DNA of 46,302 bases from Roseofilum capinflatum BLCC-M114 (GTDB lineage Bacteria > Cyanobacteriota > Cyanobacteriia > Cyanobacteriales > Desertifilaceae), in NCBI RefSeq assembly GCF_030068505.1, contig NZ_JAQOSO010000031.1:1-46302 (forward strand). The letters run 5' to 3'. The notes beneath the pieces were generated by a model that did not search any database, was not told the DNA's origin, and saw nothing but the letters and a program-made list of their open reading frames with translations. Of the stretch, positions 10,743 through 45,867 are shown piece after piece (within the stretch, counting starts at the first letter, position 1; each line of letters begins with the position of its first letter). The translations under genes and the position numbers were made by a program.

Positions 10743-11198
10743 ATGGTGAACCTTATGTCTAGTAAACTCTCGATTTCAACGGTTGAATCTAACCATTCCT
10801 CCAGGGTTACTCATCGTGACTCGTCTTGGCGGGTGGCTGAGAATTTGCTTACCAGTTTTAAGTATGCTTGGGCGGGGGTAACTTACGCTTTTAGAACGCA
10901 ACGGAATTTTCGCATTCATGTGGTGTTGGCAACCCTGGTGATGATTCTGGGATCGCTGTTGCATGTGAATGCGGTGGAAGCGTCGGTTTTGGCGGTGATG
11001 ATTTGTTTGGTTTTGGTGCTAGAGTTACTGAATACGGCTTTAGAAGCCGTGGTAGATTTAACGGTAGAACAGAACTATCATGAATTGGCGAAAATTGCTA
11101 AAGATTGTGCGGCTGGAGCGGTGATGCTCTCGGCGATCGCCTCAATTCTGGTCGGTGTGATTCTACTATTGCCTAAACTGGTTCTCCTGTTTTCTTAA
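10743..11198 (+). CDS. dgkA: Diacylglycerol kinase DgkA family
   Basis: About 151 residues from the ATG at 10743; the frame is open back to a TTG at 10704, and an ATG at 10755 is also possible. It is an integral membrane kinase of the DgkA/undecaprenol kinase family that phosphorylates lipid alcohols. The signature [13 protein letters not shown] and [13 protein letters not shown], with three membrane helices (about 68-86, 92-110 and the C-terminal [11 protein letters not shown]), place it securely. The N-terminal 45 residues are a cytoplasmic extension common in cyanobacterial versions. It is 8 bp upstream of trpG. Confidence 0.87.
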
Positions 11199-11206
11199 CG
11201 GCTCCC

Positions 11207-11800
11207 ATGATCCTTGTTATCGATAACTACGATAGTTTTACATACAATTTAGTTCAGTATTTGGCGGAATTGGGACAAGAGTTTCCCCAAGCCAAAGAGA
11301 TTCAGGTGTATCGAAACGATCGCATCTCTCTGAAGGAAATTCAAGCGCTCAAACCGGATGCGATCGTGATTTCTCCGGGGCCGGGACGACCGGAAGAGTC
11401 GGGAGTGTCCCTAGAGGCGATCGCCCAATTGGGGCCTAAAGTGCCTATTTTGGGGGTGTGTCTGGGCCATCAAGGGATCGGCCAAGTGTTTGGCGGTAAA
11501 ATTGTTTCGGCTCCTGTCCTCATGCATGGTAAAACCTCCCCCATTCACCATAACGGGGTGGGGATTTTTGCCGGTCTAGAAAGTCCCTTAAATGCAACGC
11601 GCTATCATAGTTTGACCATTGACCGCAACAGTTGCCCAAAAGAGCTAGAAATTACGGCTTGGGTTGAAGATGGAACCATTATGGGGGTTCGCCATCGTCA
11701 ATATCCCCACCTTCAAGGGGTTCAGTTCCATCCTGAAAGTATTCTCACCACGAAAGGGAAAGACCTATTGCGGAACTTTCTGCGATCGCTCTCTTCTTGA
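11207..11800 (+). CDS. trpG: Anthranilate/aminodeoxychorismate synthase glutaminase subunit
   Basis: 197 residues, standard for the class I glutamine amidotransferase subunit. It releases ammonia from glutamine for anthranilate (tryptophan) or 4-amino-4-deoxychorismate (folate) synthesis. [19 protein letters not shown], the nucleophile in [10 protein letters not shown] (C85) and the His/Glu of VQFHPES are all present. The large subunit is not nearby. Because cyanobacteria often use one amphibolic glutaminase, TrpG and PabA roles cannot be separated here. Confidence 0.92.
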
Positions 11801-32589: not shown

Positions 32590-32617
32590 AATCACTAAAC
32601 GAATATAAAGTAGTAAT

Positions 32618-33466
32618 CTATACACTTTGTCGTCTTAGAAAGGGAATCAGAGCCTCGCAGACTTTTTCCGGCCAGTCTTCTTGGGCATAATGACCCACTT
32701 CTTCTAAGGCAATAAATTCGGCTTGGGAGACCTTAGAAATTGCCTCTTTTGCGCTCGACTGTAATAACCAGGGATCGTTTTCTCCCCAAATGACTTGCAG
32801 GGGTTTTGACCATTGGGGGAGGGTGCTGCTAATTGTGGCTAAACTCGATTTTAGGTTCAGATTTCGCAAGGTTGCCAGTAGAGCGCGTCCAGCGGCCGAA
32901 GTTTCCAGGAAGGGACGACGATAAACATTAAGGTCTTTGTCATCGACTTGATAGGGCGATCCTCCTTCCAGGGTGCGATCGACAATCAGGGGATCTTGGG
33001 TCATCATTTCCCCGGCTAGGGGTAGGGTAAATTGCTGGATTTTCCAGGGGAGTTTGGCGTTGGCGCTCAGGGGGATGTTAATTAGGCTGAGGCGATGGAT
33101 GCGATCGCCATTTTCCAGAGCGTAGAGGAGTCCGGGAACACTGGTGTAGCCTTGCAGCACCAGGGACACTTGCTCTAATTCTAGACTATCGATGAGGTCA
33201 CCTAAAGCTTTAGCAAACGCTTCTGGAGTATAGGCAAAGTCCCGTTTTTCCGGTTGTCCTGATTGTCCCGCACCGATCCAGTCCGGGGCGATCGCCCAAA
33301 ATCCTTGTTCCGCTAAAGACGGCATAACCTCCCGCCAACTATAGCTTTGGGAGAGTAACCCATGAAGCAATAGAACCGGGGGTTTCTCGGTTGCTTGCAT
33401 CGGTTGCGCTTCTCGATAAAACCACTCTAGGGAACCGACTTTAATTTGCTTCTCCTCGATAGACAC
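32618..33466 (-). CDS. Alpha/beta-fold hydrolase lacking its nucleophile
   Basis: 282 residues of the epoxide hydrolase/haloalkane dehalogenase-like group. The oxyanion region LLLHGLLSQSYSW, the acid in WGENDPWL and the base in VGHYAQED are in place. The nucleophile elbow, usually HDWGG or GxSxG, reads LVLQGYTSVPG, so the Asp/Ser position is Gly. The protein is otherwise full length and undamaged. It may be a non-enzymatic binder, or the enzyme may use the following Thr. It sits upstream of the toxin-antitoxin pair with an overlapping or near-zero gap. Confidence 0.77.
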   Translation of the reverse strand: MSIEEKQIKVGSLEWFYREAQPMQATEKPPVLLLHGLLSQSYSWREVMPSLAEQGFWAIAPDWIGAGQSGQPEKRDFAYTPEAFAKALGDLIDSLELEQVSLVLQGYTSVPGLLYALENGDRIHRLSLINIPLSANAKLPWKIQQFTLPLAGEMMTQDPLIVDRTLEGGSPYQVDDKDLNVYRRPFLETSAAGRALLATLRNLNLKSSLATISSTLPQWSKPLQVIWGENDPWLLQSSAKEAISKVSQAEFIALEEVGHYAQEDWPEKVCEALIPFLRRQSV

Positions 33467-33587
33467 GCTTTTCCTTGGCTCCGTTTCGTTTCACTCAGAT
33501 GGGGTTAGCATACCGTGGTTTTTGCCTCCCTGAACAGTCTCTGTTTCCTGAGTGCAATTATTAATTTTTGTTAAAATCCGCCATTCT

Positions 33588-33619
33588 GTAGCGGTCACTA
33601 CAAAAATATTTGCTATAGT
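33588..33619 (+). promoter_or_regulatory. Candidate promoter with GTA-N8-TAC box
   Basis: GTAGCGGTCACTAC (33588-33601) fits the NtcA consensus GTA-N8-TAC exactly. TGCTATAGT (33611-33619) is a good extended -10. The 12-bp spacing between them is shorter than the 22-bp norm for NtcA activation, so if NtcA binds it would more likely overlap and repress. The promoter serves the 66-residue gene. Confidence 0.35.
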
Positions 33620-33668
33620 TAAAACTGTAAGGAAAAAAACACTTAATTAAACAACTGGAGAAACAATT

Positions 33669-33869
33669 ATGTTATCTACTAACGATCAAGCCCGCGCTTT
33701 AATGCACCGCCATCATCACCTCGTAAAAAATCGTCAACAGTCCATGCTTAACCGCTCTGCTGCTGAAGTAGGACTAGACAAAACTGGCGACTACTGGAAC
33801 AACATTCAAGGAAAACCCGTTGGCGGAGTTAGTGAAGCTTATGACCGCAGTGGTTCATCCATGAGCTAG
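33669..33869 (+). CDS. Conserved small cyanobacterial protein
   Basis: 66 residues, soluble. It has a His-rich motif MHRHHHLVKNRQQSML, then a region with DYWNNIQGKPVGG and a Gly/Ser tail. I do not recognise a family. It has a GGAG ribosome-binding site (8 nt), a clear promoter and a strong terminator, so it is an independent, probably well-expressed transcript. The His cluster could bind a metal. Confidence 0.65.
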   Translation: MLSTNDQARALMHRHHHLVKNRQQSMLNRSAAEVGLDKTGDYWNNIQGKPVGGVSEAYDRSGSSMS

Positions 33870-33908
33870 ATTTGAAAGGGATAAACCCTTTGTACTTTAA
33901 TAACCCCG

Positions 33909-33942
33909 GAAGGACGTTTCTGATTCAGAAGCGTCCTTCGTT
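33909..33942 (+). terminator. Strong terminator hairpin after the 66-residue gene
   Basis: GAAGGACG (33909-33916) pairs with CGTCCTTC (33932-33939), a T-G wobble continues the stem, and TTCTGA / TCAGAA (33918-33923 / 33925-33930) completes it, giving about 15 paired positions with a tiny loop. GTTT follows. It is a very stable intrinsic terminator. Confidence 0.75.
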
Positions 33943-33964
33943 TCATAAAAACCCAGTTTCATCA

Positions 33965-34099
33965 TAGTGGACTGTTTCGACTAAAATAGGGCTTTGTTTG
34001 TAGTAAGCACGAAGAGTGCTTAAAAGCCTAGCTGGAGATGGCTTGAGCAATCACTACAAACAAAATCTAATGCATCAAATTAGCTGAAACAGTCCAGTA
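33965..34099. mobile_element. 135-bp cloverleaf-like element flanked by TA
   Basis: Outer inverted ends TGGACTGTTTC and GAAACAGTCCA are flanked by TA at each side (33965-33966 and 34098-34099). Inside is a 12-bp perfect pair TTTGTTTGTAGT (33993-34004) / ACTACAAACAAA (34053-34064), enclosing two small hairpins, AAGCAC/GTGCTT (34005-34021) and AAGCC/GGCTT (34024-34044). TA flanks and inverted ends suggest a MITE of the IS630/Tc1-mariner type; a structured RNA is the other option. Confidence 0.55.
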
Positions 34100-34117
34100 G
34101 TGCCGTGACAACCCTAA

Positions 34118-34190
34118 AATGGTGGGTTACGGCGGATTGATAGATTGCTGTCAGAGTCTAGGTTTTAGCCGCCTAACCCACCCTACGCTA
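34118..34190. repeat. GGTGGGTTA inverted repeat and nearby spacer
   Basis: GGTGGGTTACGGCGG and CCGCCTAACCCACC form an imperfect inverted pair about 40 bp apart, a type of repeat common in cyanobacterial spacers. The remaining spacer to 34333 has no gene; GGGAATAG and CCCATTA heptamers lie at about 34285-34360. Confidence 0.55.
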
Positions 34191-34363
34191 ATGCTGCCTA
34201 TTTCGATCTAACGACGCTCAAACTTCTGTGGTATGTTCACGAAAAGACCGGTCATAGCTTGCTTTTATCGGTCAAGAAACAGGGAATTAGGGAATAGAGA
34301 ATAGGGAATGGGGAAGACAGAAACCGGGTTTCTATTACCCATTACCCATTACCCATTACCGCT

Positions 34364-34599
34364 CTAAGCGCTACCCGCTTTCACCAAATCAACGGGTGAG
34401 CTGGGTTGACTGTTCTGGTAGTCGGTGACCATTTTGCGGAATTGATCGCCCTCGATGGTTTCCTGGTCTAATAAAAGCTCCACGAGTTTATCCATTAAGG
34501 GGCGATTTTCCCGCAACAGCTTGCGAGCTTGTTCATGGCAACGGACGGCAATTTCTCGCACTTGGCGATCGATTTGGGTGGCGACTTCCTCTGAGTATA
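34364..34599 (-). pseudogene. ftsH: Headless fragment of ftsH (last 78 codons)
   Basis: The sequence from [20 protein letters not shown] to the stop repeats the C terminus of the intact ftsH at 39064. The alignment is 34365-34598 with 39065-39298, 234 nt, 26 differences (about 89% identity), no gaps. Only 6 of 77 residues differ, so most changes are synonymous and the copy has been under selection or comes from a relative. The 5' part is replaced by unrelated sequence. There is no start codon in frame with a plausible promoter. Confidence 0.85.
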
Positions 34600-34688
34600 A
34601 TGAGGCGGAGATCGCGCAGAATTTTGAATTGATGAAACAATCCATACCCAGTAAAAAGGAATAGGATCACATTCACAACTCCCCAAAC

Positions 34689-34823
34689 ATGAAATTGCAT
34701 AAATTTCACTCAAATCTGCTAAACTTGTTAAATATTAATCTACCGAGTTTAACCTATTTTCAAGAATCAGCAAAAAATGGTAAAATCATTTCGGACAAAA
34801 TTGGTAACCAAATAGGGAAATAA
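34689..34823 (+). CDS. Candidate 44-residue leader peptide or RiPP-like precursor
   Basis: A 44-codon frame starts at the ATG at 34689 and ends in TAATG, sharing its stop with the start of the MurL-like gene at 34823. This is the classic overlap for translational coupling. The peptide has a hydrophobic N-terminal half (SNLLNLLNINLPSLTYF) and a basic, Gly/Ile-rich end (KIISDKIGNQIGK), with no Cys. No strong ribosome-binding site precedes it. It also covers the best -35/-10 pair of the next gene, so the two interpretations compete. It could be a peptide substrate, a leader peptide or chance. Confidence 0.3.
   Translation: MKLHKFHSNLLNLLNINLPSLTYFQESAKNGKIISDKIGNQIGK
34758..34786 (+). promoter_or_regulatory. 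Sigma-70-like promoter of the MurL-like gene
   Basis: TTTCAA (34758-34763) and TAAAAT (34781-34786) are separated by exactly 17 bp, about 37 nt upstream of the ATG at 34823. The -10 is strong and the -35 moderate. Confidence 0.45.
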
Positions 34824-36334
34824 TGATAGTTCAAGAAAAAAGACGGCTTGAGTGCCATGAATTCGATGATTTTTTAGTCACTGAGGTTTGTTTAGATCAG
34901 GTATCTGTAAACAACAATCAGCTCAAATTCACCTATCTCATTGATGGAGAACCGAATAGCTGTTCTATCAGATACAATACCGTTGATTTTGGCCATTCTC
35001 CTTTCAAATCCGAGCAAGAAGCTAAACGATTTGCTGTCATTTTAGCTGTATTATGTTCTTTAAGATTTGGAGCTGTACTCCCTCAAAAAGTTAATTTGCA
35101 AGCCTATAGTTCTTATATTGACCGAGAGTTATTGGACTTCCTTCAGGTAGCCATGGGTGGACATTGGAGCCAACATCGCTATCAAGTAGGAAAACTAGAT
35201 TACAAAACTCCCAAACTTCTAGTAGACGATTTACAGTTAGGGAAAAAAGCAACTTATCCTCTGTGGTCTATTTCAAAAGAAAATAGTCCAGTACAGGTTA
35301 TTCTAGGTTGTGGTTCTGGCAAAGATAGTTTGTTATGTAGTCGAATCTTAGAATCAGCAGGTGTGGAGTACGATATTGTCACCTACTTTCATGATATCTA
35401 TGGAGACAATAGTGACCAAGAAAATCTTTTTGAGCAAGTCACCAGTCATCTCAAATATTGTAATCGACATGGTGTGTATTTTAATGACGAATATTATGGG
35501 TGGGTTCAGAGGCGTTTGCAGCAAACTAACATCGTTGCTAGAACCAAAGACTATTTTGGTAAAAATCGGTTTCGCACTGAAGCAGGAGAAACCCTGTTAA
35601 CAACTGTTGCCATGATTCCTGTTCAAGTAGCTCATAGTATTCCTTTATTAGCGTTGGGTCATGAAAAAAGTGCAGATGCTCCAAATTTAGTTGAACCGGA
35701 ATCTGGGGAAGACGTTTCCCACCAGTGGACGAAAAGCTTGACATATCACAAGGCTATTACAGAGCAAATGTTGCGGATTTTTGATGGTGTTAACTCAGTT
35801 AGCTTGACCAAACCCATCCACGATGTAAAGATTTTTGATCTCCTTTTTCAACTCGATCCGACTTTACCTTATGCCACTAATTCCTGCAATTTCCAAAAAC
35901 CTTGGTGTTGCCGTTGTGAAAAATGTTGCTATGTTTTTTCTGGATTTGCAGCTTTTGGTAACCTAGATAAAACAGTTGAGGCTTTCGGCAATAATCTTTT
36001 AGACATGCCAGAAAATTTACCACTTTGGTCAGATCTATTAGGACTCAATGGCTATATTGCTTGGGAATGCGTGGGTCTACCAGAAGAAACACAGCTTTAT
36101 TTCTATAAACTTTATAAACAAGGAGTGAAAGGCCAAGCAATAGAGCTATTTGAATCTGAGATCATCCAACCCCTGCAAGACAAAGGTGAGTCATTAGACT
36201 TGTACTTTAGCGCAATTCAGGATCGTTGTTCTCAAGTCTATGAAACTCACCATACCATGCCTGAGTGGTTGTGGGAAAAAATAAAACCCGTTTTGCTCCA
36301 ACATGGATCGACAATCTTTTCAAATGAGGACTAA
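34823..36334 (+). CDS. MurL-family PP-loop epimerase-like protein
   Basis: 503 residues. MurL epimerises the terminal L-Glu of UDP-MurNAc-L-Ala-L-Glu using ATP. From memory, this protein keeps the MurL landmarks in order: ATP PP-loop LGCGSGKDS (161-169), a GHEKSADAP region, DVSHQWTKSL, SCNF (C355), the cysteine triplet WCCRCEKCCYVF (C362-x2-C365-x2-C368), FGNNLLDMP, AWECVG and PEWLWEKIKP. The gene is in a cassette with an unusual dioxygenase-methyltransferase fusion rather than with murD or other peptidoglycan genes. It may act on a different acidic or peptide substrate; assignment to family is strong, to substrate only inferred. Confidence 0.78.
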   Translation: MIVQEKRRLECHEFDDFLVTEVCLDQVSVNNNQLKFTYLIDGEPNSCSIRYNTVDFGHSPFKSEQEAKRFAVILAVLCSLRFGAVLPQKVNLQAYSSYIDRELLDFLQVAMGGHWSQHRYQVGKLDYKTPKLLVDDLQLGKKATYPLWSISKENSPVQVILGCGSGKDSLLCSRILESAGVEYDIVTYFHDIYGDNSDQENLFEQVTSHLKYCNRHGVYFNDEYYGWVQRRLQQTNIVARTKDYFGKNRFRTEAGETLLTTVAMIPVQVAHSIPLLALGHEKSADAPNLVEPESGEDVSHQWTKSLTYHKAITEQMLRIFDGVNSVSLTKPIHDVKIFDLLFQLDPTLPYATNSCNFQKPWCCRCEKCCYVFSGFAAFGNLDKTVEAFGNNLLDMPENLPLWSDLLGLNGYIAWECVGLPEETQLYFYKLYKQGVKGQAIELFESEIIQPLQDKGESLDLYFSAIQDRCSQVYETHHTMPEWLWEKIKPVLLQHGSTIFSNED

Positions 36335-36360
36335 ATCCTGTAAAATTAGGATGTTTTTTT
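36335..36360 (+). terminator. Terminator of the MurL-like gene
   Basis: ATCCT (36335-36339) and AGGAT (36348-36352) form a weak 5-bp stem with an 8-nt loop, followed by GTTTTTTT. It starts right after the stop codon, in the 69-bp gap between converging genes. Confidence 0.5.
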
Positions 36361-36403
36361 GGCAGCTTAGACAAAACTATAAATAGATGAAACGGCTGTA
36401 TGC

Positions 36404-38050
36404 CTAACTTTTCTGAGCAACCACTAAATACCGAGTTGAGGGTGAAGTGTCGTCTTCTGGTTCCAAGGGTTCTAGGGTAATCGCATCAAAGATATCTACC
36501 TGGCGGAAATACTGGTGAAATATATGGCGAACTTTCCACAGTGAAGGTAGATAACGGATATGGGTTCCCTCGTCAGTAATACGGAGTTGACCACTCTGTT
36601 TACTGACGTTAATAATCTTGCTTTGCTGGAAAGTATTATGATTTTTTTCCAGTAGGGTAGGTTGACGTAGAGAAATCACGTTTTCGGTAGTGATGACATT
36701 GGGATACCAACGGATGTGATCGGGAGTGATGAAGTCGCCAATAAAATACCCCCCTGTTTTGGTCAGTTCGGCGGTTTTCGCGATCGCCTTTTGCATATCT
36801 GTTTGAGGCAGATATTGAAACACATTGAGGATTGCCATGCTAATATCCCAACGGTCAGTTTCCACATCCATCGTCAAAATATCCCTTACTTCTGCTCTAA
36901 TCTTCTCAGAAGCAAGTTTTACCATGGCAGGGGATATATCCATACCCAAGAGTCGTTGTGGGTTCACTCCATAAGTTTTCAGGATAAATTCTTCCATAAT
37001 TCCCGTGCCACAGCCAATAGAAATTAGATCGGCATCAGCCAGATTTTGCTGATATTTTTCAACAAAAAACTCAATGTACCGAGCCACAAAGTTATTCAAA
37101 CATTGTTTACCAATCACCTCATCATAGACTCTGGCATAGGTAAAGAAAGAATCTTCCTCAGCTTTATTAATCTGCAAAATTTCATTTTGTAAGTGAGCCG
37201 CACAAGTTAATTCTTTACAGATGATTTTCCAAACATTAGTATCAGTTGTATGCCCTTTATCATCGATGTTTTCCATCAATTCTTTTTTGAAATCATCCCA
37301 GTATTTAAGATCAAAAAGCTCACCAATTAACCGAGGCTCTACTTCTTTCATTGGGGAATCTAGACGATGACATTTTCTTACCCGATAGAGATATTCAACC
37401 GTATTGCGAAGAAAAGTAAAATAGGAAGCATTTGGGGCGGGTTTAGTGCTGCTAATTTTGTCTTTAGGTAAGCCAAAAAACACCCCTCCATTTGTTTGCT
37501 CAATAACGCCTTCAGTGATGTTCCAAATACTGGTATCTGCGGTAATTGCTGCGTGAGAAAATTCTGCATCATTTACTCCATAAACATGCAGACTCAGAAA
37601 CTTTTCTTGAGAACAATTACCCATTTGATGAATGAGTTTATTGCCTACAGCAACGACTTCACCGGATTTAAGGGTTTCACGAGATAAAGTGGTGAGCAAG
37701 TCATCTTGTAGAAAAAAAATAGTGTGTTCTGCTTGACCAAAAACTTGTACTGCTCCCCATTGAGTATAGCCATGATTATGAATAGCCGAAACATCTCCGG
37801 GTAGCCAGGACATCACCATAATTTCAAAAAAGCGATCGCTAAACATCAATTGACGACCGTAGCTATCTTCCGCAGGGTGAACAAAACACTCCCAGGGAAG
37901 CAACTCTTCTGTTCTGACTCCAGCATTTAAAACAACTTCCTTCACCAAAGCGGGTTTAAGATGATAGCGATATTGGTAAATCCTGTCAATAATCTTCTGT
38001 ATCGATGATGGTAAAGAGCTAAGTACCGCCCCTTCTTTAAATTGATTCAT
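36404..38050 (-). CDS. Cysteine-dioxygenase-like cupin fused to a SAM methyltransferase
   Basis: 548 residues from the ATG at 38050 (GGAG ribosome site; a TTG one codon earlier is not preferred). Residues about 55-190 match thiol dioxygenases: YGRQLM (R66 for carboxylate), PGDVSAIHNHG (H91 and H93) and LIHQMGN (H141) give the three-His iron site, and LSLHVYG follows. Residues about 300-545 are a class I methyltransferase with ISIGCGTGIMEEF (near 345) and GMDISPAMV. About 110 residues in between are unassigned. Oxidation of a thiol plus methyl transfer in one chain is unusual. It lies 90 bp downstream of a second methyltransferase and converges on the MurL-like gene. Confidence 0.75.
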   Translation of the reverse strand: MNQFKEGAVLSSLPSSIQKIIDRIYQYRYHLKPALVKEVVLNAGVRTEELLPWECFVHPAEDSYGRQLMFSDRFFEIMVMSWLPGDVSAIHNHGYTQWGAVQVFGQAEHTIFFLQDDLLTTLSRETLKSGEVVAVGNKLIHQMGNCSQEKFLSLHVYGVNDAEFSHAAITADTSIWNITEGVIEQTNGGVFFGLPKDKISSTKPAPNASYFTFLRNTVEYLYRVRKCHRLDSPMKEVEPRLIGELFDLKYWDDFKKELMENIDDKGHTTDTNVWKIICKELTCAAHLQNEILQINKAEEDSFFTYARVYDEVIGKQCLNNFVARYIEFFVEKYQQNLADADLISIGCGTGIMEEFILKTYGVNPQRLLGMDISPAMVKLASEKIRAEVRDILTMDVETDRWDISMAILNVFQYLPQTDMQKAIAKTAELTKTGGYFIGDFITPDHIRWYPNVITTENVISLRQPTLLEKNHNTFQQSKIINVSKQSGQLRITDEGTHIRYLPSLWKVRHIFHQYFRQVDIFDAITLEPLEPEDDTSPSTRYLVVAQKS

Positions 38051-38143
38051 CAATCACTCCTGACTCTACTTTCAAGCCTCAATGTTACGCAGAATCCAAT
38101 CAAGACGAATAGCAAAAATGTATTTTAAACCTCACTTCAGTAA

Positions 38144-38893
38144 TTAGTTTGCAAGGATATCACTCTTTTTTCTACCCATAATTGCTACATAAATTAGAGA
38201 TCGTCCATCTAAGTAAAACCGGTGCTGATATTCATGGGTCTTTTCCATCTTAAAAATAGCTTCTTTAGCGACCCAAGGATGCCATGCTGAAAACGAGTTT
38301 GCACCTGTATCTTCCCATCGTTCTTTTTGCACATTGAAGGCAATCCAGCTATGAGGAGCAACCATATTATAAGCTGTTGCCCAAGCTGAAGCCGGAATAT
38401 GATTGAATCCAAGAGCAGAACCACAAACAATACAGTTAAACCCTCGATTACTTAAGGCTTTGTGTGTCGTTTCGCTTAAGTTGCTGAGGTCTTCGATATA
38501 ATAATTTTCATAAACCCCTGGATAAGTATGGGACACAGCATCTAAAGCTTCTGGTACAATGTCAATTCCAGTAATTGATTTAATCCCTAAATCAGCTAGA
38601 GCTTTACCAAACATCCCACTACCTGCGCCGACTTCTAATACCACCAAATCTTCAACAGAACCTCCTGCTTGAGTTACTTGCTCGGCCAGTAGTGAAGAGA
38701 GAATGGTATGGGATTGAGCCTGTAACTTCTCCATTAAGTGTTCATAAAGGAAGGGAATTCTGTAGATTTGAGGATAATCGTGCAGTTTAATCTTCCGTTC
38801 TTCTCCGTTATTCTTTAACCAAACAAACTCTTCTTGGATAACCGAGTTTTCAGATTCTTGTGGAATCCGAATATCAAATTGAACATTTTCCAT
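38144..38893 (-). CDS. Class I SAM-dependent methyltransferase
   Basis: 249 residues from the ATG at 38893; a GTG at 38905 is alternative. The SAM pocket is VVLEVGAGSGMFGKAL (motif I), TGIDIVPEALDAV (motif II, acidic end of beta-2) and FNCIVCGSALGF (motif IV region). The N-terminal 60 residues (KLHDYPQIYRIPFLYEHLMEK) look like a substrate-binding cap. It is the first gene of the minus-strand transcript, with the dioxygenase-methyltransferase fusion 90 bp on. The substrate is unknown. Confidence 0.8.
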   Translation of the reverse strand: MENVQFDIRIPQESENSVIQEEFVWLKNNGEERKIKLHDYPQIYRIPFLYEHLMEKLQAQSHTILSSLLAEQVTQAGGSVEDLVVLEVGAGSGMFGKALADLGIKSITGIDIVPEALDAVSHTYPGVYENYYIEDLSNLSETTHKALSNRGFNCIVCGSALGFNHIPASAWATAYNMVAPHSWIAFNVQKERWEDTGANSFSAWHPWVAKEAIFKMEKTHEYQHRFYLDGRSLIYVAIMGRKKSDILAN

Positions 38894-38942
38894 AGTGAAA
38901 TGCACGTGGTATTTGAATCAAAGAACTAAAGGGGTTTTAAGG

Positions 38943-38971
38943 ATTCTAAGGTGAATTTAAGGGGTTGTCAA
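38943..38971 (-). promoter_or_regulatory. Near-consensus sigma-70 promoter of the methyltransferase operon
   Basis: Read on the minus strand, TTGACA (38966-38971) and TAGAAT (38943-38948) have the ideal 17-bp spacing. The predicted start of transcription is about 43 nt before the ATG at 38893. This is among the best promoter matches in the window. Confidence 0.6.
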
Positions 38972-39063
38972 CTCTTCCAAGAGGTCGAAAAAGACAGAAG
39001 TGTTTTTGATTAAGCATTGATTAAGAAGGGAAGCCTGTAATTTGCCTCCCGATCTGTGTATTA

Positions 39064-40965
39064 TTAAGCGCTCCCAGCTTTCACCAAATCAACCGGTAAG
39101 CTGGGTTGATTTTTCTGGTAGTCGGTGACCATTTTGCGGAATTGATCGCCCTCAATGGTTTCTTGGTCTAATAAAATATCCACCAATTTATCCATCAGGG
39201 GGCGATATTCTCGCAGCAATTTCCGAGCTTGTTCATGACAACGGACGGCAATTTCTCGCACTTGGCGATCGATTTGGGTAGCAACTTCTTCCGAATATTC
39301 GGAACGAGTCATTAAATCTCGGCCTAAAAAGACCTCACTATTGCCACTTTCGAGGGCTAGAGGCCCTAAATCAGACATGCCATAACGGGTAACCATTTCC
39401 CTAGCGAGTTTAGCCACACTTTCGATATCGCCACTGGCTCCTTTGGTGACTTCGGCATAACCAAATACTTCTTCTTCAGCCGCTCGTCCACCGAGCAAGA
39501 TAGTAATTTGATTGAGTAACCAAGCGCGGCTGTAGAGTCCACTGTCGATGATATCTTCATTGAAGACTTGTTGGGCAAAGCCGCCAATGCCTCCGGAACG
39601 GGGAATGATGGTGACTTTGTTCAGGGGGTCGGCGTTTTTGAGCAGGGTCATTAAGAGAGCATGGCCGGTTTCATGGTAGGCAATGAGGCGCTTTTTCTTG
39701 CTGTCGAGGAGGGGGTTGAGGGTGAGGCCGATGGTAATGCGATCGATCGCATCATTAATTTCTGCGGGAGTTATGGCTTCCTTGCGCCGTCTAGCGGTGA
39801 GAATGGCAGCTTCATTGAGTAGGTTCGCCAAATCTGCACCAGAAAAACCAGGGGTGCGTTGGGCGATCGCCTCTAAAGATACATCTGCCCCCACTTTCTT
39901 ATCGCGAGCATGAACCTCTAGAATTCCCAACCGGCCCTTATAGGTCGGCAAATCCACCATCACCTGGCGGTCAAAACGACCCGGACGCAATAGGGCTTGA
40001 TCCAACACATCCGGGCGGTTGGTTGCCGCAATTACAATCACGCCACTGTTGCCTTCAAAGCCGTCCATTTCCGTCAACAATTGGTTTAGGGTTTGTTCCC
40101 GTTCATCATTCCCCCCACCAATACCTGCGCCCCGTTGACGGCCAACGGCATCAATTTCATCGATAAACACTAAACAGGGAGCATTTTCCTTGGCTTTCTT
40201 AAACAAGTCCCGAACCCGCGAAGCGCCCACACCGACGAACATCTCCACAAACTCGGAACCGGAGATGCTGAAGAAAGGAACGCCTGCTTCACCGGCGATC
40301 GCCTTGGCCATCAGGGTTTTCCCGGTTCCCGGAGGCCCCACTAATAACACCCCCCTCGGAATTTTCGCTCCAATGGCCGTAAACCGCTCCGGTTGTTTCA
40401 AGAAGGTCACCACCTCTTGCAACTCTTCTTTGGCTTCTTCCACTCCAGCCACATCATTAAACAGCACTCCCGTTTTGGCCTCCATCTGGAATTTGGCCTT
40501 CGATTTGCCAAAATTTAGGGCATTGCCCGCCGACTGGGAAGAGCGCTTAATAATCATCATTAATCCAATCACCACCAACAGGATTAACAACAGGTTGGCC
40601 ACACTACTGACCACCATGCGATTATCCGCGCTGGCCTGTTCCCCAAAGCTGACTTTATTGGCTTTTAGGGCTTCAATCAATTCGGGGTTGCGCTCAAAAA
40701 TGACCACTTCTTGCTCGGTCTCCGCTCCCTCTAGCTTCACTTGAGCGCGGTTTTTCGTGGGGTCAATTTCGACGTGGTTGACTTCTCCCGCTTCAATTTT
40801 TTCTAATAATTGGGTATAACTCAAGCTGTTGGACTGAGCCTGTACTGGACGATTTAAGAGACTCCAGGTGAACAGCAAGGAACTACTTAGGGCCACGGTA
40901 GCGCCCAGGGTAATCCCTTTGCGTTTGAGGGTTTGAGCCATAGTTTTGAATTGAGAACTGTTCAT
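39064..40965 (-). CDS. ftsH: ATP-dependent zinc metalloprotease FtsH
   Basis: 633 residues from the ATG at 40965; 40995 would extend it past the usual start. FtsH is a membrane-anchored AAA+ protease, important in cyanobacteria for photosystem II repair. TM1 is at about 14-40 ([20 protein letters not shown]) and TM2 at about 110-132. Walker A GPPGTGKT (about 210), Walker B VFIDEIDA, the RPGRFDRQV second region of homology, and the zinc motif HETGH (about 431) are intact. Its last 234 nt are duplicated at 34365-34598, so the cassette lies directly downstream of it. Confidence 0.96.
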
Positions 40966-41101
40966 AGCGTGAGATCCGGTGGTGCGATCGCCCAATAGAT
41001 TAACGGTTGATTTGAGAATCGACTCCTCTAGGATAGTACGGGTTCTCTTGGGTTACTCTTCTTAGTGTACCGTTGATAGCTGAGAGTGGACAGTCGGCTG
41101 T

Positions 41102-41527: not shown

Positions 41528-41602
41528 CATTTTAAGCGATCGCGAGGGAACCCTTGTAGCGAGTTGGGCACAACGAGCCATGATTTCTTCCCAAGTGCGA
41601 TC
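41528..41602 (-). pseudogene. Remnant of a VapB-like antitoxin
   Basis: About 25 codons containing TWEEIMARCAQLATRV, which matches TWEEIMAHSAQLAG of the intact antitoxin at 42146-42397 at both protein and DNA level. The C-terminal toxin-binding half is absent. It is fused in frame to the hypothetical gene downstream. Confidence 0.6.
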
Positions 41603-42145: not shown

Positions 42146-42397
42146 TTAAAACTCTAGAGGGCTACGGGTTTCGTACACGCTCTCTAAGCACTCTTCCAAG
42201 TCATTACCGGCCCAGGTTCCTGCATGTCTTAATAAGGAACGGCCGGAAGCTGGGCGAAACGAGGGGGGTTTTTCTGAAGACAGGGTTTGAGGTGGATTGG
42301 AAAGTACCGTCACGCGCACGCTACATCCAGCGAGTTGGGCTGAATGGGCCATAATTTCTTCCCAAGTTCCCTCTATTTCTATAGGTTGTTGTGTCAT
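42146..42397 (-). CDS. VapB-type antitoxin of the PIN toxin
   Basis: 83 residues, directly upstream of vapC (3-bp gap). The N-terminal TWEEIMAHSAQLAGCSVRVTVL resembles small cyanobacterial antitoxins, and the C-terminal WAGNDLEECLESVYETRSP is the toxin-binding tail (WxGxDLExxLxxVYxxRS). A HIP1-rich spacer precedes it. Confidence 0.82.
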   Translation of the reverse strand: MTQQPIEIEGTWEEIMAHSAQLAGCSVRVTVLSNPPQTLSSEKPPSFRPASGRSLLRHAGTWAGNDLEECLESVYETRSPLEF

Positions 42398-44400: not shown

Positions 44401-45867
44401 TCATCGTGCTAAATTACAGGCTTCTGAACCGCCATTGGTTGCAGAAGCAATGGCAGCACGAACGAGTGGATGGAGATCGGTATAAGTCTTGCAAGCTTGG
44501 CGGATTTGTTGCGTTGTTCTCTGAATAACAGTGGGCCCTCCACGTTCAGAAAAGACAATTTGAAGACTGCTCACATACTTGGCTATCTCCGGAGAGATAT
44601 TTTGATTGCTGCTTCCACTGCGACGGGAAGAACAGCCAGGGTCCCATGTTCCACAAGCAGTGGGTATATCCAAAGATTGTGAGACAAATAAGACCCTCCC
44701 CCGTCGATCTGTGCCAATAACATTGACTGTAGAACGAACACCTTGAGTCCTCTCTGTTGCAATCGCTTCTCCTTCAATAACTAACCTACCACCGCGATAG
44801 AGTGTTGCTTTGGCTGTGCTATTTCCTCCATTCATCCGGGTTGAATTATTGGTATTCACCTGGGAAGAGGTTTCTGGTGGCATGTAATTGGTTTGACTTC
44901 TGCTCGGACTAGAGCTTGACCCTGAAGAGGTTTGAGCGGAAACCCCTTCCCAACGAAAGATATCCATGTTGTCATTGACAACATAAGGATTGCTAGAATT
45001 ACCGCCAATACTAACGGCTCCTCCTCCCGTTGGGTTCCAACCTGAACCATTCCACTGATAAACTTCATGTCCACCCCTGACAGAGTTCATACCAATTAAC
45101 CAGCCATCTCCTATATCCCTAGCTTTCCCAGGTACTTGCTCCCAGCCTGAACCATTCCAACGAAAAATATCATTGTTGTCATTGACAACAGAAGGATTCC
45201 TGGAATTACCACCAATACGAACAGCTCCTCCTCTCATGTACTCCCAACCTGAACCATTCCACTTATAAATTCCATATCCACCACTGACAGGATTTGTACC
45301 AATTATCCAGCCATCTCCTACATCCCTAGCTTTACCCGGTAATACACGCCAAGTTGAACCATCCCAACGAAAAATATTACCTTTGTCATTGACAACATAA
45401 GGATTCCTAGAATTACCGCCAATACGAACAGCTCCTCCTGGCATTACACGCCAATTGGAACCATCCCAACGAAAAATCGTATATCCACCAGGGACAGGAC
45501 TGCCGCCAATTAACCAGCCATCTCCGATATCCCTAGCTTTACCCGGTAATACACGCCATGATTTAGATTGGGAAGAAGAACCTGAAGCTCTTGGGCCGGG
45601 AACAAATTCCCAACGGTGATCGGTGCGAGTTCTATCATTATTATTACCAGATAGCTCACAGTTAGTTAGTTTGATATTTGCACCGTTTTTGACTCCGGGC
45701 GATCCAGAAATATCAAGACATCTCCCTGATAGCTGATTGCGGAGAAATCCCTCACGACGACTTTGTGCTGTGGCTTGATTTGCACCCATTGAAAGTAATA
45801 AGGCGATTCCTGCTACTGATAATGCAGTCAGGAATTTCTTGTTGAATCGATTCAGATTAAATTTCAT
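44401..45867 (-). CDS. Secreted R-type lectin plus six-blade tectonin propeller protein
   Basis: 488 residues. Signal to about 35 (cleavage after ATA). Residues about 38-95 look like one ricin-type lectin subdomain (GRCLDISGSPGVKNGANIKL, then HRWEFVPG). Residues about 103-325 are six tectonin blades, in alternating pairs: RVLPGKARDIGDGWLIGG and GGAVRIGGNSRNPYVVND, each ending IFRWDGS. The 69-residue, 207-bp pair is repeated three times at DNA level. A Ser/Asn linker leads to a C-terminal domain (about 350-488) of unknown fold with several cysteines. It is probably an extracellular carbohydrate-binding protein. Its neighbour on the same strand is the DM9-like protein. Confidence 0.75.
   Translation of the reverse strand: MKFNLNRFNKKFLTALSVAGIALLLSMGANQATAQSRREGFLRNQLSGRCLDISGSPGVKNGANIKLTNCELSGNNNDRTRTDHRWEFVPGPRASGSSSQSKSWRVLPGKARDIGDGWLIGGSPVPGGYTIFRWDGSNWRVMPGGAVRIGGNSRNPYVVNDKGNIFRWDGSTWRVLPGKARDVGDGWIIGTNPVSGGYGIYKWNGSGWEYMRGGAVRIGGNSRNPSVVNDNNDIFRWNGSGWEQVPGKARDIGDGWLIGMNSVRGGHEVYQWNGSGWNPTGGGAVSIGGNSSNPYVVNDNMDIFRWEGVSAQTSSGSSSSPSRSQTNYMPPETSSQVNTNNSTRMNGGNSTAKATLYRGGRLVIEGEAIATERTQGVRSTVNVIGTDRRGRVLFVSQSLDIPTACGTWDPGCSSRRSGSSNQNISPEIAKYVSSLQIVFSERGGPTVIQRTTQQIRQACKTYTDLHPLVRAAIASATNGGSEACNLAR

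Follow-up and report, generated by a model that had tools for sequence, protein, structure and literature searches.

Displacement of old gene 3' ends through one-sided homology has been proposed for type VI secretion system (T6SS) effector and Rhs loci (PMC5361080), and homology-facilitated illegitimate recombination is defined in PMC3240628. In Helicobacter pylori, insertion with a long target duplication often involves restriction-modification genes (PMC1643837, PMC3154945), and in Streptococcus pneumoniae, natural transformation can yield direct duplications (merodiploids) via partly repeated donor DNA (PMC3784515); all these accounts follow the cited portions of the papers. The locus analyzed in this study lies at the 3' end of ftsH in the cyanobacterium Roseofilum capinflatum BLCC-M114, on contig NZ_JAQOSO010000031.1, whose 46,302 nucleotides constitute the window (the entire contig C31 of the source genome G000, listed as 99% complete with 0 contamination). 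Here three enzyme genes, the cargo, are located between the intact ftsH, whose last 234 bp are referred to as copy A, and a displaced second ftsH 3' end, copy B. Comparison within the genus sample of six species-level genomes (G000 and the congeners G001-G005) indicates that the ftsH 3' end very probably carries a strain-variable gene island changed by general recombination. The event belongs to a known kind and is unusually legible in this genome. A literature search for ftsH as an island site in cyanobacteria found none and gave only work on Pseudomonas clones.

The T6SS and Rhs loci, as described in the cited part of PMC5361080, resemble the window in having an upstream homology anchor, a non-homologous far end, an old 3' end shifted downstream, and no known integrase. 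They differ in that the displaced part belongs to a variable effector system with the immunity genes kept, whereas the window has a housekeeping protease gene as anchor, a cargo of enzymes, and a displaced stretch that has decayed. The H. pylori insertions, in the cited accounts, are similar in that the insert is absent from a sister strain and the long direct repeat is single in the other allele; in contrast, the window has no restriction-modification gene, its copies are 89% alike, and one of them is joined to pieces of a different island. The S. pneumoniae merodiploids are given in the cited portion as about 100 to 900 kb and form between existing repeats, whereas the window has a 234-bp repeat and a non-homologous junction.

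The ftsH gene and the repeat pair comprise the following features.

39064..40995, minus strand: intact ftsH, 643 aa (open reading frame, ORF; NCBIfam FtsH_fam 755 bits, cut-off 600).
39065-39298, minus strand: copy A, part of the intact ftsH (repeat search).
34365..34598, minus strand: copy B, the ftsH 3' end in displaced position, codons 567-643, free of internal stops (repeat search, alignment, tree).
38906..39063, no strand: spacer from the ftsH stop to the cargo, with congener match limited to some 12 bp at the ftsH end (comparison with the five congeners).

The repeat search recovered the pair as described in the initial annotation of the window, on the same strand, spaced by 4700 bp, 89% identical, and ungapped; its E-value near 1e-82 rules out a chance origin. 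The edges also agree with that description, one being the stop codon of ftsH, TAA in A and TAG in B, and the other, nucleotide (nt) 1698 of 1932, lying inside the gene. The copies differ at 26 of 234 sites (6, 2, and 18 at codon positions 1, 2, and 3), and with 20 of these in synonymous and 6 in non-synonymous codons, the changes are indeed mainly synonymous. A recent local copy of the ftsH end was rejected, as A and B are as divergent as species of the genus, and hence not recent unless one of them was overwritten.

All five congeners carry ftsH (the G001 copy is marked with one in-frame TGA). Two of them have an empty site and only one copy of the 3' end of this ftsH paralogue. The gap from the ftsH stop to sequence that aligns with 33946 is about 170 bp in G005; in G002, which shares just 33548-33937 of the right flank, the gap to sequence that aligns with 33937 is about 22 bp. 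Between the same flanks, G003 has another island, roughly 7.9 kb long (L031, 9313 to about 17200), with the following genes.

L031 9515-10300: methyltransferase MT1.
L031 10303-11103: methyltransferase MT2.
L031 11160-11807: 215-aa membrane protein.

This island also holds two radical-SAM-like proteins (Pfam scores just below cut-off; SAM, S-adenosylmethionine) and a protein of 444 aa that matches no Pfam family, presumably a lysine 2,3-aminomutase-like enzyme. In G004, homology stops with ftsH and another gene follows, and in G001 the contig extends only 711 bp beyond ftsH. An insertion at the 3' end of ftsH is supported, because G005 and G002 are empty and G003 is differently occupied. The empty alleles in relatives that the initial annotation named as support do exist, but the cassette itself occurs at this site in none of the five congeners. 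The flanks of the locus are 91-94% identical to those of G003 and G005, the similarity to each varying along their length, and are conserved enough to recombine. Such homology, in ftsH and in the alpha/beta-hydrolase region, could have allowed everything between ftsH and the right flank, with the scar, to be copied ready-made from another strain, where the scar would have formed by one of the two mechanisms considered below (one-ended insertion or tandem duplication); with no donor among the five congeners, we consider this import rather unlikely.

On both sides of copy B, sequences of the G003 island were detected that the initial annotation did not contain (34599-34778 and 34200-34286). Read in the ftsH direction, the order is complete ftsH, spacer, cargo, MT2-start relic, promoter, broken membrane gene, copy B, spacer, MT1 piece, repeats, and native flank, where the parts following the cargo, apart from copy B, are as listed below.

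34766..34778, plus strand: MT2-start relic, in which the G003 ATG reads ATC, then AGC AAA AAA (alignment with G003).
34599..34778, minus strand: promoter region and first 37 codons (34709-34599) of the 215-codon membrane-protein gene, 95% identical to G003 11091-11270.
34200..34286, plus strand: MT1 piece, residues 230-259 of 261, frame open, 85% DNA identity to G003 9606-9520.
34097..34194, no strand: dispersed repeat of ~100 bp with many copies in the genus (genome search).
33965..34100, no strand: repeat resembling a miniature inverted-repeat transposable element (MITE), with inverted ends and many copies in the genus (genome search).
32617..33946, no strand: native right flank, an alpha/beta hydrolase gene and a 66-aa gene, shared with G003 and G005.

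The membrane-gene stub is interrupted by copy B, the translated match running past the junction to residue 45; two genomes of the 39 searched have the complete membrane protein, namely G003 and G004 (in the latter away from ftsH). The MT2-start relic sits between the divergent promoter and the MurL-like gene of the cargo, and the MT1 piece follows ftsH in the order and orientation that it has in G003. The non-native stretch reaches beyond copy B, to about 33947. The original picture of a single cassette bounded by two target copies is not supported as it stood, since copy B is fused to the membrane-gene fragment and followed by a part of MT1, both of the G003-island type. Judged from these alignments, three fragments of an older G003-type island survive in the window around the newer cargo, and the cargo appears to have replaced or overlaid that island rather than entered a clean site. 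Because the MT2 start survives ahead of the MurL-like gene, the G003-type gene order probably came first at this locus.

The repeats at 33965-34194 are multi-copy in the genome, and the contig join there rests on the assembly; a false join at these repeats or at copies A and B could therefore be considered. However, the joins at 34598/34599 and before the MurL-like gene are outside the multi-copy repeats, the remnants are 95% and 85% like G003 and not identical, and hence not G003 contamination, and the genome is listed as nearly complete and free of contamination. We regard an assembly artefact as very improbable.

The junction 34599/34598 connects the equivalents of G003 11270 (membrane codon 37) and G003 9079 (ftsH nt 1698). 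Read from the alignment, no base is shared at this join, and thus there is no long homology at the junction; its topology is that of either a head-to-tail duplication or a one-ended insertion. The most likely mechanism, to which we give about even confidence, is an insertion guided by homology on one side and joined illegitimately at the far end, that is, homology-facilitated illegitimate recombination. It is supported by the empty alleles, the different occupant in G003, the G003-type remnants, the non-homologous join, the MT2 relic, and the site pattern and ftsH exchange described below. An ancestor would have possessed a G003-type island (ftsH, MT1, MT2, promoter, membrane gene, and more). 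In a sister lineage, MT1 and MT2 would have been swapped for the methyltransferase, cupin-methyltransferase, and MurL-like genes, with the MurL-like gene taking the MT2 promoter. DNA of this lineage, spanning ftsH to membrane codon 37, could then have paired with the recipient ftsH, its far end being joined without homology at ftsH nt 1698. The product would be a complete ftsH (A), the cargo, a broken membrane gene, and the old ftsH 3' end of the recipient (B) with the old island behind it, which would later have been deleted down to the MT1 piece, where the repeats settled.

The same junction could arise by tandem duplication in place, if the segment between ftsH nt 1698 and membrane codon 37 had been doubled head to tail in a G003-type ancestor. 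The cargo would then have replaced MT1-MT2 in the first unit, the second unit would have been deleted to the MT1 piece, and ftsH would have been overwritten by exchange with another lineage. The junction (11270/9079 in G003) is exactly as expected from such a duplication and the order of the three G003-type fragments fits; it would also agree with the two alleles that A and B share to the exclusion of four congeners and with the likely exchange in ftsH, both considered below. On the other hand, two cargo-level events are needed besides the duplication, and as the A-B distance (26/234) equals the A-G003 distance (26), the duplication must be old or one copy must have been overwritten. We consider tandem duplication the main rival, a possible but doubtful origin of the locus. 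Both it and the one-ended insertion imply a variable island changed by general recombination.

Among the congener sequences, the one nearest to copy B is G003 (20 differences) and the one nearest to copy A is G005 (18), with 26 differences both between A and G003 and between B and G005. Of the 26 sites where A and B differ, 15 have the B state in G003 and 9 the A state; in G005, 16 have the A state and 8 the B state. These distances, from the alignment with orthologs that the initial annotation had suggested, partly support its idea that one copy came from a related strain, but the tree of the 234 bp leaves the grouping unsettled. The B+G003 group has support of 50/88, A+G005 is not in the best tree but is not rejected either (approximately unbiased test, p-AU 0.385), and for A and B kept together p-AU is 0.0635; the outgroup is the G004 row, which has 229 bp and a slightly shifted register.

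Both copies would be hybrids if a Campbell-type circle, carrying the ftsH 3' end, the cargo, and the membrane-gene fragment and closed at 34598/34599, had entered by one crossover in the ftsH 3' end, which would produce the same topology. By eye, no single switch point between G003-like and G005-like states is obvious among the 26 sites, and the cargo consists of three enzymes, with no other ORF above 103 aa in the insert. Such a circle seems improbable.

Another part of ftsH, adjacent to copy A, is much closer to G005.

39299..39627, minus strand: near-G005 tract of ftsH, nt 1369-1697, 329 bp, 2 differences from G005.

Here 2 of 329 sites differ from G005, compared with 117 of 1368 in nt 1-1368 and 18 of 234 in copy A. 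This is the lowest value of all 329-bp segments, and 0 of 5000 site permutations were as low, in a test where the segment size was picked after viewing the data and the linkage of sites is ignored. Because the tract is nearly identical to G005, a recent homologous exchange inside ftsH is likely. The tract ends within nt 1630-1712; the repeat edge at nt 1698 falls in this interval, perhaps by coincidence.

Several observations weigh against the proposed one-sided insertion. No intermediate allele was found, and the cargo is beside the membrane gene in none of the five congeners. The 234-bp tree does not settle which copy is that of the donor and which that of the recipient. Moreover, A and B share two alleles (ftsH nt 1740 and 1866) that are absent from G001, G002, G003, and G005, which suggests common ancestry of the copies or conversion between them. 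The near-G005 tract stops near the repeat edge while copy A differs from G005 at 18 of 234 sites, and thus the tract does not simply reflect the donor of A. Genes of the comEC and dprA families are present in the genome, but matches to these families also occur in 10 and 11 of 14 control genomes, respectively, E. coli included, and being so common they say little on transformability. Finally, recombination of this kind is, according to the cited part of PMC5361080, much rarer than ordinary homologous recombination.

Tentatively, the ftsH 3' end could be a recurrent integrase-free docking point, where small enzyme sets form a slow cassette stack in the genus. It is likewise a speculative suggestion that selection for intact ftsH lets ftsH-ended DNA add repeatedly, each time restoring the gene and pushing the earlier end and its island downstream. 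If the docking-point reading were true, cargo would be exchanged repeatedly with the ends of essential genes as its anchors. The locus itself is a legible fossil of accessory enzyme genes changing hands in cyanobacteria without visible mobile-element machinery.

Elsewhere among the 39 genomes, ftsH-end fragments beside ftsH were found in G007 and G008. Both have such a fragment immediately upstream of an intact but different ftsH paralogue (L135:3204-3756; L136:3253-3985), to which its DNA is 70-73% identical; it is probably an older tandem duplication, and the situation differs from that in the window. The minisatellites right after the ftsH stop differ between congeners, with 25-bp units in G003 (L031:9335-9509) and 21-bp units in G005 (L032:9357-9489). 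The two radical-SAM-like proteins of the G003 island (L031:9515-16738) are 54% alike, and an 80% relative of the first is encoded in G008:C4. The MITE-like element and the ~100-bp repeat have at least 45-54 matches per genome in five of the six genomes and at least two in G004, and at times occur as one composite (G005:C96, G000:C113).

The cargo between the copies is a three-gene unit, with the coordinates given in the initial annotation.

38144..38905, minus strand: SAM-dependent methyltransferase, 253 aa (Pfam Methyltransf_23, 33.7 bits).
36404..38053, minus strand: cysteine-dioxygenase-like cupin fused to a methyltransferase, 549 aa (Pfam CDO_I, 24 bits with cut-off 23; Methyltransf_25, 45.5 bits).
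34823..36334, plus strand: MurL-like protein, 503 aa, with the motif GSGKDS (NCBIfam MurL, 69.8 bits).

The two independent promoters and the convergent terminator proposed for this unit were not confirmed. In 33850-39100, the consensus scan gave 10 promoter-like sites, with 12.9 expected from shuffles, and 5 terminator-like sites, with 4.0 expected, none of them between the convergent cargo genes. Two of the ten promoter-like sites are upstream of the MurL-like gene (34757, plus strand) and of the methyltransferase (38971, minus strand), in a scan that overall is at chance level.

In agreement with the statement that no integrase is visible, 33947-39063 contains no ORF above 103 aa besides the three cargo genes (shorter ORFs were left outside the family scans), and the single match in the phage-family search is a methyltransferase. 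Integrases are known to insert at tRNA genes and some protein genes with restoration of the target. Site-specific integration in the ftsH 3' end by an element that restores the gene end would explain the intact gene by the insert and the displaced 3' end behind it, and identical runs of about 41 bp within the A/B repeat, seen in the list of differing sites, could hide a short core. Nevertheless, there is no integrase-sized ORF beyond the cargo, and copy B starts at the fusion with a gene fragment of another island. Having no room for a recombinase gene and starting copy B at a gene fusion, the locus disfavours this mechanism, which we find barely credible.

The cargo methyltransferase has a 42% relative elsewhere in its own genome (G000:C57), and the PDB sequence matches of the cupin fusion are cysteine and 3-mercaptopropionate dioxygenase chains. 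The MurL-like protein scores 69.8 bits with the MurL model NF041275, far below the cut-off of 700, with residues 269-487 covered, and has neither a Pfam match nor a PDB sequence match at E 0.01. Its GSGKDS motif is invariant across 8 aligned MurL-like sequences. A structure predicted from six sequences is of moderate quality (mean predicted local distance difference test score, pLDDT, 69.8), and its best Foldseek matches are QueC (top, E 7e-3), Cap9, YcfA, and TrmU, none at 1e-3. We take these four to be PP-loop enzymes. A QueC-like domain is thus weakly predicted, and the motif together with the Foldseek matches would fit an ATP-using enzyme. MurL consumes ATP and yields AMP, according to the cited portion of PMC8788868; the PP-loop-like motif of the cargo protein would suit the ATP activation of a carboxylate proposed for MurL. 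It differs from MurL in scoring far under the family cut-off, and neither of its cargo neighbors is MurD-like by Pfam. The cargo probably serves to produce or alter a small compound of peptide-like nature, as we predict from family resemblance alone: it would comprise two methyltransferases, a cupin resembling thiol dioxygenases, and an ATP-dependent epimerase of the MurL type.

The cargo is absent from all five congeners, where the cupin fusion gives short weak matches only. Relatives of the MurL-like protein are found elsewhere in the genomes of G001 and G004 (50-53%), a truncated one in G002, and weaker ones (27-29%) in G001, G002, G004, and G005. The nearest named relative found is that of Moorena bouillonii (66%), with a 57% relative of the cargo methyltransferase encoded directly upstream (L102:9166-11491). 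The same pair is present on a contig of Candidatus Parabeggiatoa (L105:666-3100), the MurL-like protein being 46% and the methyltransferase 35% identical. This hints at a transferable two-gene unit of the methyltransferase and the MurL-like gene across phyla.

The MurL-like loci compared were L038/L076, L039/L077, L102 and L141 (which share identities and are probably of the same genome), L103 and L143 (which also share identities), L104, L105, L106, L142, and the partial L144 and L145; L141-L145 were examined with flanks of at most 1.5 kb, and L104 starts near the gene. Among them, a methyltransferase relative adjoins the MurL-like gene only in L102/L141 and L105, while L103 has a 20% methyltransferase match some 7 kb off, and the cupin-methyltransferase fusion is beside none of them. 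In a separate comparison, L107 and L108 contained relatives of neither the methyltransferase nor the cupin fusion, and L109 yielded no row. The full-length cupin fusion was found in two further genomes (G187 and G173) among 388 of the order, and the stretches around it there contain no relative of the MurL-like protein or the methyltransferase of the window. The cargo was not found as a conserved three-gene cluster in the compared loci. MurL-like genes that are truncated or contain stops occur in relatives (L078:998-1573, L143, L144, L107, and L108, from G002, G296, G154, and Okeania metagenome-assembled genomes), and some of the truncated ones may be cut by contig ends.

Two other repeats were observed in the window. 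Three tandem 207-bp copies (100, 81, and 74%) at 44945-45565 are located inside a 488-aa ORF (44401-45867, minus strand), and a 39-bp direct repeat with 87% identity (41558-41596 and 42329-42367) is found at two short ORFs.

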